Assembly: GCA_027490155.1 (NCBI GenBank)
Contig: JAIXYP010000004.1
Location: 1 to 37,500 of the forward strand
Origin: Cytophagaceae bacterium
GTDB lineage: Bacteria > Bacteroidota > Bacteroidia > Cytophagales > Flexibacteraceae
Length of the DNA: 37,500 nt
Direction of reading: 5' to 3'
The notes beneath the pieces are model-generated. The model searched no databases. It was not told the origin of the DNA and saw nothing but the letters and a program-made list of their open reading frames with translations. Below, piece by piece: positions 4,055-8,341 of this stretch. Positions within the stretch are counted from its first letter, which is position 1, and every line of letters starts with the position of its first letter. The position numbers were made by a program, and so were the translations under genes.

Positions 4055-4090
4055 AAAGCCCCGACCATCTGGCCGGGGCTTTAGTTTTTT
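4055..4090 (+). terminator. Rho-independent terminator of ldh, possibly bidirectional
   Basis: A 9-bp perfect stem AAAGCCCCG (4055-4063) / CGGGGCTTT (4074-4082) with a 10-nt loop is followed by TAG and six Ts. Read on the minus strand the stem is followed by a pyrimidine-rich TTTTCTTC, so it may also end the minus-strand zinc-ribbon gene that stops at 4148. Confidence 0.85.
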
Positions 4091-4147: not shown

Positions 4148-5473
4148 CTATTTTTTCTGTAGTTCGGGTAGGCCGTCTTGGTCTTCTCGGTTTTCCTTCG
4201 GCTTAGCCAGCTTGATGTCCTTGACCTTTTTGAGGTTCTCGAATCCTGTTTTGCTGATCTCATCTAAGGACTGACTACCTGCTTTGGCGACACCAGAGTA
4301 CACCCCATACTTGTTCGGGTAATCATAGAAAAAGTAATAGAAATACGCCAAGGCTATGCCCGCCCAAACCATGAGCTCAAACTTTAAACTACTAACTGAT
4401 TGGCCATCGTCACCTAGGCCCTCACCAAAGATGGCCAAACATACCCCGTTCAGGATCGCAAAACCGATAAGTGTAACCACGAAATAAATAAAGACACTAA
4501 GGCCACTGAGCGGAACCTCCATTTGCATATCGGTGTTGAGGCCACTGGCTACGAACAACTTGCTTTTGTCCTTAAATGTATAGTTGCCCACCCACATCGG
4601 GAATAGATAATGGCGGTAATGGACACGGCTATAGTCGGCAGTATAGTGGCTAATGCGTTGATGGTCACCACCGATGTCAGCCCTAATGGCCGACTCTACC
4701 TGCTCCTTACCCATGCCTTTGCTTGTTTCGAAACACTCGGCCAAGGTATGCGAGTGGCCCTCAGCTAAAAAGCCAGATAGGTATCGCTCGTCAAACGGAA
4801 CCATCGATTCGTTCTGGTTAGATCTGAAACCAACTGCGTCCGCATGCCGGCTTTTGATAAACTGAACGTCATTTAGCGAAACGTTTACTGTCCCGGATAC
4901 CGAATGCCAACGCGTATGCGTATGCCGATTGCCTTTGCTATCCGTGGTAGTGTAGTTGGTGCCACGCTCGCCGGTGTAGTCGGCCTTTACATGATAGTCA
5001 AACGAATAGGCCGGCACATAGATACCATTGATGTTACTCGGGTTGAAGTAGGTAAATAGCTTATCGGGCACAAAGGGATTTCGCTTGATGTCCTTTTCTA
5101 GCCTGGTCCAGATTTCGTTTTGGGTTACCTTAAACGGAACAAGGCCAGTTGGTTTGATCGAATGGGCTCGGTTAGTAACATCGGCCACGGTATTGGTGCC
5201 ACAATAAGGGCAATCAACGGATAGGGTAAAGGTTGGCAACTGAAAGTCACCCGAGCACTTTTTGCATTTAACCCCAACCGATTCGTAATACAGCTCTTTC
5301 TCGGTTTTGGCCTGTGCATAGGGGTTTTCTACCAAGTGCTGACCAGCCTTTTGGCTTCCGTCGATCTGGGTCAGGTAGCCACAAGAAGTACAGGTTAGTT
5401 GGTCCGAAGCAGGTAGGTATTCCAGCTCGTGGTCGCAGTTGGGGCAACTGAGTTGCAAGATTTTATTTTCCAT
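4148..5473 (-). CDS. Double zinc-ribbon membrane protein, YdjG-like partner of the SPFH protein
   Basis: A 441-residue protein with two TFIIB-type zinc ribbons at the N-terminus: Cys10/13 with Cys28/31 and Cys70/73 with Cys88/91. A conserved soluble region follows (about 110-310, with several His/Trp clusters such as THTRWH). Two membrane helices come next (about 321-350 and 366-384) and a charged Lys/Glu-rich tail. Proteins of this form are often misnamed PriA or helicase because of the zinc ribbon, but no helicase motif is visible. The gene lies 13 bp downstream of the SPFH gene on the same strand, so the two form an operon. In Bacillus subtilis the zinc-ribbon membrane protein YdjG works with the SPFH protein YdjI and PspA in membrane-stress protection. 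The same partnership is inferred here. No pspA homologue is in the window. Confidence 0.85.
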   Translation of the reverse strand: MENKILQLSCPNCDHELEYLPASDQLTCTSCGYLTQIDGSQKAGQHLVENPYAQAKTEKELYYESVGVKCKKCSGDFQLPTFTLSVDCPYCGTNTVADVTNRAHSIKPTGLVPFKVTQNEIWTRLEKDIKRNPFVPDKLFTYFNPSNINGIYVPAYSFDYHVKADYTGERGTNYTTTDSKGNRHTHTRWHSVSGTVNVSLNDVQFIKSRHADAVGFRSNQNESMVPFDERYLSGFLAEGHSHTLAECFETSKGMGKEQVESAIRADIGGDHQRISHYTADYSRVHYRHYLFPMWVGNYTFKDKSKLFVASGLNTDMQMEVPLSGLSVFIYFVVTLIGFAILNGVCLAIFGEGLGDDGQSVSSLKFELMVWAGIALAYFYYFFYDYPNKYGVYSGVAKAGSQSLDEISKTGFENLKKVKDIKLAKPKENREDQDGLPELQKK

Positions 5474-5486
5474 CGATCAATCAGGA

Positions 5487-6578
5487 CTAGGCAGGGATCG
5501 GTGGTGGAGTCTGGCCAAACAAATGGCTAAGGGCCGGCACTTGACTAGCAGGTGTCCATGCAGCCATTCCCTTTTGCCAAACAAGGGTATCTGCCTTGAT
5601 TGTCTGGTTCTGGATCAAGGCCGTAAGCTCAGCCATGGAATTCGGGCCATTTTGGGTTTGCCCAGCTGCCCAGTAGAACGGCTCGCCCGTCTGTGGCAGA
5701 GGTGGTGGCATGGCGCCGGGGGCAGAAGCCGCCCTTGTTTGCCCAGCCATTACCTGATTGGCGAGGTTGAGGCCCATGCCTAGCCCTACAGCATCAGCCG
5801 CCAAAGAGTTGCCCCCTTGGCCGTCAGTCATCGAGAGACCTGCCTGAAAGGTGATAAAATTGGGCTGACCCATGATGCCCATGCCACTGCGTTTGTCGAT
5901 CAGGGCCTCCACTTCCTCAGGCACCGTGATGGCGTCTATCGTCAGGAGCGGGACCCCAAAACCCGTTTTGCCAAATAGCTCTTGCGCCAGCTCTTGCAGC
6001 TTAATGGTATAGTCTTGGTACTTGGTGGCTAGGTCATAGAGGCTGATGTTGTCTGAGGCCACCATATCGGCGAATGCCATCACGACATTGCTTCGCAGGT
6101 AGTCAAAAATGTCATCCATCGTGAAGTTGGGCTTGGTGCCGACGAAGTCAGTCAGCAACTTGCTGGGTGTGCCGATGACCTGTATCGAGAACTGGCCCCG
6201 CGCCCGCAGCCGCACCACCCCTAGCTCGGCATCGCGTTTGATGACAGGGGTAGCTGTGCCCCACTTGAGGTTGCTAAAGATCCTGGTACTGAAGAAGTAG
6301 ACCTCAACCTTAAACGGACTCTCGAAGCCATACTTCCAGCTGCTAAGGGTGGTCGTGATCGGCATGTTAGAAGTCGTCAGACGATGGGTACCTGGCTGAT
6401 AGGTATCGCCCAGCTGACCTTCGGAGACCAGCACCGCCAACTGCCCCGGCCGGACCACGAGCTGCGCCCCGTTTTTGATCTCGTTGTTGTACCGCTCGAA
6501 ACGGTGCACCAGGGTTTGGTTATCCTTGTCGGTCCACTCGATGATGTCAATGAACTCGGCAAACAGTTTGTTAAACAT
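5487..6578 (-). CDS. SPFH-domain (YdjI-type) protein with C-terminal GYF_2 domain
   Basis: A 363-residue cytoplasmic protein. Residues about 1-250 are an SPFH/band-7 domain of the YdjI (virion-core-protein-like) type, with the characteristic FIDIIEWTD start, YNNEIKNGAQLVVRPGQLAV and LKWGTATPV. A Gly/Met-rich linker and an Ala/Pro-rich stretch lead to a C-terminal GYF_2-like domain (about 299-350; hallmarks FYWAAGQTQNGP, LVWQKGMAAW), then a PPPIP tail. There is no membrane helix, so membrane recruitment probably needs the zinc-ribbon membrane protein encoded next. YdjI relatives elsewhere often end in a zinc ribbon instead. Here those ribbons sit in the partner protein and a GYF module, a proline-peptide binding fold, takes the C-terminus. 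A small GC-rich palindrome CGCCC-AAG-GGGCG (6587-6599) lies just upstream of the start codon and could influence translation. Confidence 0.88.
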   Translation of the reverse strand: MFNKLFAEFIDIIEWTDKDNQTLVHRFERYNNEIKNGAQLVVRPGQLAVLVSEGQLGDTYQPGTHRLTTSNMPITTTLSSWKYGFESPFKVEVYFFSTRIFSNLKWGTATPVIKRDAELGVVRLRARGQFSIQVIGTPSKLLTDFVGTKPNFTMDDIFDYLRSNVVMAFADMVASDNISLYDLATKYQDYTIKLQELAQELFGKTGFGVPLLTIDAITVPEEVEALIDKRSGMGIMGQPNFITFQAGLSMTDGQGGNSLAADAVGLGMGLNLANQVMAGQTRAASAPGAMPPPLPQTGEPFYWAAGQTQNGPNSMAELTALIQNQTIKADTLVWQKGMAAWTPASQVPALSHLFGQTPPPIPA

Positions 6579-7468: not shown

Positions 7469-8341
7469 CTACCCATTACACCAATCACAATACATCGCAT
7501 CAGCTGCGGTGGCCTCAACAGGTACAACGTCTTGGTGGTCGCAAACTTGGCATTCGTAGACCTTGCTGAGCGGCAGCTTGGTAGGCCGGCCACAGTTGGC
7601 GCAGGGCAGGCCAGCGTTAGAGCCTACCAGCTCAAACCCAATGGATTGGCAACGGGTGCAACGCCGATTCAGCGTCTGGATCAAGTCTGCCCCAGCGAGG
7701 GCGATCACCCGCATGCGGCTGGGGTTGTGGTGGGCCCGCATATCGGTACTTAGGCGGGCCGAGTTCGGGAGGCCCTCGTTGAGGTAGGCCGACCATGCCA
7801 CCATTAGTGCCTCATCAGTGTATAGTCCCTTATGATATACCCGTTCGGTTTGCCCTGTCAGCCACGGAGAGGTAATGTCATAATCCAAGATCAGGTGGTG
7901 CCCAGGCCCTGTTTGGTTGGCTTGCTCACGGAATATAAGCAGGTCTTGCACGTTCTGGGGTTCGGTGTGGGCATAGTTGGTTTCAGTACTTACGGCAAAG
8001 CCAGCCACCATGCGGTCATCTTGCGGCAACCAGAGGCCTACCCACTCGCGGTCAATGGCCATCAGGGGCACGGCAGGATGCGGCCCAAAACTACCTTCGG
8101 AGACCAGAATCGGCGTATCGGGGTATTGCTGCCGGACCAAATGCACCTTCAGGAACATCGTCTCGGTGATGTTGCCCGGGCGGTCCCGCTCCCCGCTAAA
8201 GGTGCCTAGCAAATCCGTATCTGGCAAAGTAGGTGGCACCAGCACTTCAGCCCCAAAGGCTTCGTAGAATAGCGGGGCAAGGGCGGCCTCTTTGCCATGG
8301 GCGGAGGCGAGGATAATATTTTGGCCTGAGAGTGGGTGCAT
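7469..8341 (-). CDS. DUF6671 family protein with two C-terminal zinc ribbons
   Basis: A 290-residue soluble protein of unknown function. The N-terminal domain (about 1-215) shows conserved-looking blocks: LASAHGKEAALAPL (11-24), TDLLGTFSGERDRPG (42-56), SEGSFGPHP (81-89), STETNYAH (118-125) and STDMRAHHNPSRM (198-210). The C-terminal part carries eight Cys in two ribbon pairs, Cys228/231 with Cys247/250 and Cys264/267 with Cys285/288. This pattern matches what I recall as the DUF6671 family. No reaction is established. The acid and His residues in the conserved blocks would suit an enzyme, but that is a guess. The gene is alone, with gene-poor sequence downstream and a divergent M16 peptidase upstream. 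A -7-like TAAGTTTG lies about 65 bp before the start. Confidence 0.75.
   Translation of the reverse strand: MHPLSGQNIILASAHGKEAALAPLFYEAFGAEVLVPPTLPDTDLLGTFSGERDRPGNITETMFLKVHLVRQQYPDTPILVSEGSFGPHPAVPLMAIDREWVGLWLPQDDRMVAGFAVSTETNYAHTEPQNVQDLLIFREQANQTGPGHHLILDYDITSPWLTGQTERVYHKGLYTDEALMVAWSAYLNEGLPNSARLSTDMRAHHNPSRMRVIALAGADLIQTLNRRCTRCQSIGFELVGSNAGLPCANCGRPTKLPLSKVYECQVCDHQDVVPVEATAADAMYCDWCNG

Follow-up and report, generated by a model that had tools for sequence, protein, structure and literature searches.

The window analyzed here comprises 37,500 nucleotides of contig JAIXYP010000004.1 from a Cytophagaceae bacterium. On its minus strand it harbors a gene for an SPFH protein with a C-terminal GYF_2 domain (gene 1), followed by a gene for a double zinc-ribbon membrane protein (gene 2). 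A GYF-tailed SPFH gene followed by this type of zinc-ribbon gene is a common arrangement in nine phyla. The window pair is a divergent but ordinary member of this real, conserved family, and the interest lies in the family rather than in the copy. The pair contains the following features:

5487..6578, minus strand: gene 1, SPFH/Band_7_1 protein of 363 amino acids with C-terminal GYF_2 (open reading frame, Pfam, AlphaFold2)
5694..5708, minus strand: PPPLP before the GYF domain, residues 291-295 of gene 1 (alignment A4)
5529..5675, minus strand: GYF_2 domain, residues 302-350 of gene 1 (Pfam, structure comparison)
5493..5507, minus strand: PPPIP after the GYF domain, residues 358-362 of gene 1 (alignment A4)
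5474..5486, minus strand: spacer of 13 bp between gene 1 and gene 2
4148..5473, minus strand: gene 2, double zinc-ribbon membrane protein of 441 amino acids (open reading frame, cysteine pattern, AlphaFold2)
5201..5446, minus strand: two C4 zinc ribbons, Cys10 to Cys91 of gene 2 (cysteine pattern)
4505..5164, minus strand: conserved middle domain of gene 2 with long beta strands, about residues 104-323 (AlphaFold2)
4307..4504, minus strand: C-terminal helices of gene 2, residues 324-350 (hydrophobic by hydropathy at 331-349) and 361-389 (model only)

An earlier note on this DNA, made from the letters alone, had described two genes 13 bp apart and a C-terminal GYF_2-like domain on the SPFH protein, and both statements were confirmed. 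Pfam assigns residues 24-235 of gene 1 to PF13421 Band_7_1 (1.7e-76, 257 bits against a cut-off of 24) and residues 302-350 to PF14237 GYF_2 (4.2e-15, above cut-off). The SPFH part matches prohibitin, stomatin and HflK/C (Foldseek 1.5e-9, VIA Z 13.1). By hydropathy no membrane helix is present in gene 1 or in any of the 57 rows of its alignment A4, which consists of the window protein and 56 of the 60 upstream SPFH genes described below (L111, L119, L147 and L160 were left out). The AlphaFold2 model built on this alignment has a mean pLDDT of 83.2, with low confidence in the linker at about residues 240 to 298. The earlier proposal hinged on residues 299-350 forming a GYF fold, and this fold is present: residues 301-350 reach a pLDDT of 96-97, and residues 298-363 superimpose on Tic56 (7vcf_Q; VIA-align Z 8.4, rmsd 2.8, 66 aligned). 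The gene-1 profile also matched 7z3c, listed as 'Adventurous gliding motility protein X', over the GYF part (2.4e-10). We take the matched region to be the GYF domain of GltJ, and the NCBIfam GltJ model matches the same stretch of gene 1. Because the Pfam, pLDDT, Tic56 and 7z3c results agree, the C-terminal part of gene 1 has a true GYF fold. The sole other GYF_2 match of the genome (G000:C41:234956-235093, L001) is N-terminal in a protein whose following part is hydrophobic and, by eye, presumably RDD-like.

The partner was found to be a zinc-ribbon membrane protein, as the earlier note had said, with eight conserved cysteines and C-terminal helices. The cysteines stand at positions 10/13/28/31 and 70/73/88/91; the first four are present in 79 and the last four in all of the 80 rows of alignment A5 (window included), and all eight are invariant among eight relatives. 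No Pfam family, zinc-ribbon models included, scored above its cut-off for gene 2, and the ribbons were assigned by this cysteine pattern. Among anti-phage defence families, PADLOC gave no match for gene 1 and two marginal matches for gene 2 (E 0.005), both in the ribbon region. The AlphaFold2 model of gene 2, built on the 80-sequence alignment (mean pLDDT 83.1), shows two ribbons, two blocks that each combine a helix with long strands, and helices at the C-terminus; a third helix at 393-418 has low confidence. Structure searches of the PDB with the full model, in which the middle domain was not folded separately, gave no meaningful match. The top Foldseek matches were pore-toxin barrels (E 0.02, probability 0.04, TM-score about 0.1) and were rejected as artefacts of the long strands. 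An internal duplication of the middle domain, a helix plus long hairpin occurring twice, was likewise rejected, as a half-versus-half profile comparison gave a probability of 0.4%. The 80 gene-2 members match 244 Pfam families, the 25 most frequent of which are mostly zinc-binding and do not include PepSY, YpeB or NTF2-like. By hydropathy, a single hydrophobic helix ends at most 40 residues from the C-terminus in 78/80 rows (window included). About 90 residues follow the first membrane helix in the window copy (window 4148-4423), compared with the 78/80 rows ending within 40; this extension is made up of the predicted helix 361-389, the low-confidence third helix and a charged tail.

The distribution of the pair was analyzed from the gene-2 side in a species-wide set of bacterial genomes using one peptide pattern. 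At least 590 relatives were found and the best 80 of 590 were used, a sample biased to relatives of the window's gene 2, with 44/80 from Pseudomonadota. These 80 span 12 phyla. In 60 of them, from nine phyla, an SPFH gene is located upstream on the same strand. Gene starts were set mechanically, and the resulting gaps are at most 150 bp in 40 loci, 151-1300 bp in 19 and longer in one. Several of the wider gaps contain a small intervening membrane protein, cytochrome-like by eye only. With a profile built in this analysis, a GYF tail was detected in 59/60 upstream SPFH genes, the exception being a Clostridium protein that ends in zinc ribbons; Pfam GYF_2 matches all 57 aligned members. The other 20 of the 80 loci have no SPFH gene nearby, four with under 1500 upstream bases and 16 with more. 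The same pair also occurs in plasmid records, with a gap of 3 bp in Vibrio coralliilyticus, 1 bp in Paracoccus, 161 bp in Tsukamurella and 291 bp in Comamonas. Gene-2-type proteins are named 'hypothetical protein' or 'zinc ribbon domain-containing protein' in public records, and the pairing supplies their partner. No description of a GYF-tailed SPFH/zinc-ribbon pair was found in the open-access library searched, which is not the whole literature. The PspA-linked form of Bacillus is already published (PMC8581546, PMC9239133, PMC11237479), and the GYF-tailed pair is a variant of this known type.

Within the phylum, 395 genomes were sampled, with a close gene 1 defined by E below 1e-110 and a full-length gene 2 by E at most 1e-90. 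Some SPFH match was present in 55 genomes, a close gene 1 in 24 and a full-length gene 2 in 14. All 14 genomes with gene 2 fall within the 24 with gene 1 (Fisher p about 1e-19, kinship ignored). Together with the 60/80 paired loci of the wider scan, this bears out the co-occurrence that the earlier note presupposed. Eleven of the 14 pairs are adjacent on one strand with gene 1 first and gaps of 3-178 bp; the remaining three, from one family, are split over separate contigs. Five further genomes have weak gene-2 matches only. In four of these (G067, G215, G304, G339) the match either follows an SPFH gene on its strand within about 0.7 kb or stands in tandem there; in the fifth (G136) it is not placed near the SPFH gene in that way. 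Among 39 nearer relatives gene 1 occurs in eight and gene 2 in six, all inside these eight. The window pair is adjacent, two others are separated by about 0.5 kb (G161) and 3.4 kb (G178), and three lie on separate contigs or far apart. Among the 11 genomes of its family, only the window's genome itself has either gene, and the window copy sits on a long branch in the tree.

The products had been likened in the earlier note to YdjI and YdjG of Bacillus. YdjI is predicted to be soluble, has a zinc finger near its end, requires YdjG and YdjH for membrane foci and recruits PspA in B. subtilis, as reported in PMC8581546. YdjG is described as two zinc ribbons, a YpeB-related or NTF2-like domain and a transmembrane segment, with an SPFH partner that ends in a zinc ribbon (PMC11237479). 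The comparison with partners of this type is supported. B. subtilis matches the same Pfam SPFH family PF13421 (the matching gene was not named), and gene 2 has the two N-terminal zinc ribbons and the transmembrane segment of a YdjG-type protein. The link of gene 2 to YdjG is indirect and comes from an Enterococcus gallinarum locus, in which an SPFH gene, a gene-2 relative (profile E 1.7e-52) and the gene for a TPM protein stand in this order and correspond to the ydjI, ydjG and ydjH types; no PspA was found in the 17 kb around it. The likeness fails at the end of gene 1, where GYF_2 sits in place of the YdjI-like zinc finger. Since GYF_2 replaces the zinc finger reported for YdjI, gene 1 is a sister form and not a strict YdjI. 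No TPM (YdjH) gene lies beside the window pair; the two TPM matches of the genome are on contig C36 and the pair is on C43.

One explanation of the pair is that it serves to recruit PspA, as YdjI does in B. subtilis (PMC8581546). The earlier note had seen no PspA nearby, and this extends to the whole genome: PF04012 gave 0 matches in the window's genome, which is 100% complete by the tool, and matched in 9/14 control genomes. In a 148-genome sample of the phylum PspA was above cut-off in 59. Eleven genomes of this sample have a close gene 1; five of them carry PspA somewhere (G013, G034, G131, G079, G095), as the recruitment explanation would have it, but the other six have none above cut-off, one of them (G037) giving a weak match at 9e-4. 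A PspA model was trained on 18 of 20 known PspA stretches, all from the window's phylum, and recognized the two left out (E 8e-72 and 6e-67). Across 130 loci of genes 1 and 2 (1.48 Mb) it found one PspA, in G034, about 7 kb from the gene-2 homologue, outside its operon and beside a weak second match. Recruitment of PspA is therefore very unlikely to explain the pair, and for the window's genome it is refuted, unless PspA sits in a gap of the assembly or is replaced by a highly diverged ESCRT-III protein. Because no PspA was seen beside the pair in nine phyla and none in the window's genome, this can hardly be its only task. The earlier suggestion of a reduced or differently wired system, taken as something special to this genome, is not supported, as the order of a GYF-tailed SPFH gene and a zinc-ribbon gene is common in nine phyla with no PspA seen beside it. 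This indicates that the YdjI/YdjG half of the system is separable from PspA.

The GYF domain is flanked by conserved prolines. The PPPIP tail pointed out earlier lies at residues 358-362, and a second motif, PPPLP at 291-295, was absent from the earlier note. Pro292, Pro358 and Pro359 are invariant in the 57 rows of A4, as are Gly311, Pro312, Trp334, Gly337 and Trp341 of the domain itself. PPP occurs at 291-293 in 54/57 and at 358-360 in 55/57 GYF-tailed sequences. As a control, 148 genomes supplied 21 GYF_2 proteins of different kinds; PPP follows the domain in seven of these and precedes it in none. PPP after GYF_2 is thus not peculiar to SPFH proteins, whereas PPP on both sides is, in this sample. 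The invariant prolines on either side add interest to the possibility, raised in the earlier note, that GYF may bind the PPPIP tail. Because the domain is of a ligand-binding type and has a conserved, doubled, ligand-like PPPxP motif around it, a clasp inside one subunit or between subunits may be inferred.

The tail itself is exchangeable. SPFH relatives that keep a gene-2 partner end in GYF_2, in SHOCT (G095, G037), in HTH_17 (Comamonas) or in zinc ribbons (Clostridium, Enterococcus). As the partner stays while the tails differ, the link between the SPFH and zinc-ribbon proteins looks constant and the tail looks like a module. According to PMC3581485, this SPFH family is the most frequent carrier of SHOCT. 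In a chosen list of 16 SHOCT loci, 14 are followed by a gene with two or more CxxC pairs, and two (L063, L072) have none downstream. Three loci (L067, L068, L069) carry SPFH-SHOCT followed by two different tandem zinc-ribbon membrane proteins, both weakly related to gene 2.

Alternatively, the GYF domain could hold gene 2 by binding a motif in the zinc-ribbon protein and so anchor the SPFH ring. The association of tail and partner points in this direction: in the 24 close genomes a full-length gene 2 accompanies 12 of 13 GYF proteins and 2 of 11 SHOCT proteins (Fisher p 5e-4). In 45 phylum rows with both traits known (one further row was left out), GYF-tailed proteins occur with a full-length gene 2 in 17 and without it in three, and non-GYF proteins in two and 23, respectively. 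However, this association is clustered on the tree and reflects mostly shared descent. One independent pair is left when well-supported branches are counted, and four when all branches are (sign test p 1), which rules out the correlation as proof of GYF-partner binding. Furthermore, gene 2 also pairs with SHOCT, HTH_17 and zinc-ribbon tails, which shows that GYF is not needed for pairing. We consider such GYF-mediated anchoring unlikely.

The ribbons could also bind DNA or RNA, which would make gene 2 a membrane-tethered regulator and the SPFH protein its sensor. They weakly resemble the zinc ribbons of TFIIB, S27e and RNA polymerase Rpo12, a Comamonas relative is annotated as 'TFIIB-type zinc ribbon', the HTH_17 domain noted above ends one Comamonas SPFH relative, and a regulatory role has been suggested for YdjG (PMC9239133). 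The ribbon matches are nevertheless weak and generic, and zinc ribbons bind proteins too. A regulator of this kind seems improbable.

We favor, with moderate confidence, the interpretation that the pair is a YdjI/YdjG-type membrane-scaffold module which works without PspA in this genome, probably for membrane upkeep or protection under envelope stress. It builds on the domains observed in both proteins, on the conservation of their pairing and gene order, on the invariant prolines and the exchangeability of the tail, and on the lack of PspA in the genome. The C-terminus of gene 2 would hold the protein in the inner membrane, and its ribbons and middle domain would face the cytoplasm. Gene 1 lacks a membrane helix and would be recruited to gene 2; like SPFH proteins, it may assemble into rings or domes on the membrane. 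At the end of the scaffold, GYF and its flanking PPPxP motifs would serve as a module for protein interaction, most likely as a clasp within or between subunits, or else as a dock for clients. A bolder form of this proposal can be offered only tentatively: a pan-bacterial, PspA-independent SPFH scaffold in which the GYF_2 domain of each subunit grips the invariant PPPxP of an adjacent subunit or of its own chain and, as a clasp, locks or opens the ring on the zinc-ribbon anchor, with GYF_2, SHOCT, HTH and zinc-ribbon tails as interchangeable locks on a conserved core. If the clasp is true, it represents a testable regulator of SPFH assembly, with the domain and its presumed ligand on the same chain.

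The link to stress is based on neighbouring genes elsewhere. The two nearest predicted genes on each side were surveyed (131 upstream and 146 downstream proteins). Among the first 25 of 142 families listed for each side, upstream neighbours include DUF2927 (22), TelA (17) and XpaC (8), and downstream neighbours PfkB (19) and D-Tyr-tRNA deacylase (18). Gene by gene, one locus (L116) reads TelA, DUF2927, SPFH-GYF, gene 2, PfkB kinase and D-Tyr-tRNA deacylase. TelA directly precedes gene 1, ending 3-7 bp upstream, in two Sulfurovum loci (L124, L151) and in a gammaproteobacterium (L161), and it also precedes gene 1 in an alphaproteobacterium (L112). Two further loci (L135, L033) carry TelA adjacent to the pair or close by on its 5' side. 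TelA and XpaC neighbours are of interest because xpaC-yaaN and pspA-ydjGHI of B. subtilis are both sigma-W genes (PMC3498285). A Listeria mutant of the TelA type has been reported to be more nisin-sensitive (cited in PMC12791056). The occurrence of TelA neighbours in three groups rather than in one clade strengthens the stress interpretation a little.

Several observations weigh against the favored interpretation. The window pair stands alone, with no stress gene beside it, and the loci with TelA or XpaC neighbours lie outside Bacteroidota. Related Rhodobacterales account for many of the upstream counts, which are thus not independent. The pair is rare, being present in 14/395 genomes and in one of 11 in its family, and therefore dispensable. 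More than 1500 bases are available upstream in 72 of the gene-2 loci, and 16 of these show no SPFH gene nearby. SHOCT, the replacement of GYF, was no oligomerisation domain in one test reported in PMC3581485. Finally, the lack of PspA beside the pair in the all-bacteria loci was determined with the phylum-trained model, and the rest of the genomes from other phyla was not searched.

Downstream of gene 2 the window contains one further feature:

4055..4082, minus strand: candidate terminator hairpin of 12 pairs (-26.2 kcal/mol, z -4.6)

This hairpin was absent from the list of a separate site scan that also covered promoters. Beyond it lies a convergent gene of the Glu/Leu/Phe/Val-dehydrogenase family. 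On the other side, 890 bp separate gene 1 from the next likely minus-strand gene upstream, which encodes a DUF6671 protein (7469-8341) with CxxC pairs of its own near the C-terminus. Because of the hairpin downstream and the 890-bp gap upstream, gene 1 and gene 2 look like a complete unit. The promoter scan gave 8 sites with 4.2 (sd 2.3) expected and yielded nothing usable.

Compared with known systems, the pair shares with PspA-YdjGHI of B. subtilis a soluble Band_7-type SPFH protein and a zinc-ribbon membrane protein, and the Enterococcus locus links both systems. It differs in that the window's genome lacks PspA, no TPM gene lies beside the pair, the SPFH protein ends in GYF_2 where a zinc finger is reported for YdjI, and the SPFH gene comes first in the window. 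SHOCT-tailed Band_7_1 proteins (PMC3581485) belong to the same SPFH family as gene 1, but carry SHOCT instead of GYF_2 and mostly have another type of CxxC partner. The gliding motility protein X entry (7z3c) and Tic56 (7vcf) contain the same domain fold as the GYF part of gene 1 within unrelated host proteins. A QmcA-type SPFH protein is itself membrane-anchored, unlike gene 1. Pairs of SPFH and NfeD proteins such as QmcA-YbbJ (8z5g) also combine an SPFH protein with a dedicated partner, which is of the NfeD type there and a zinc-ribbon protein in the window pair.

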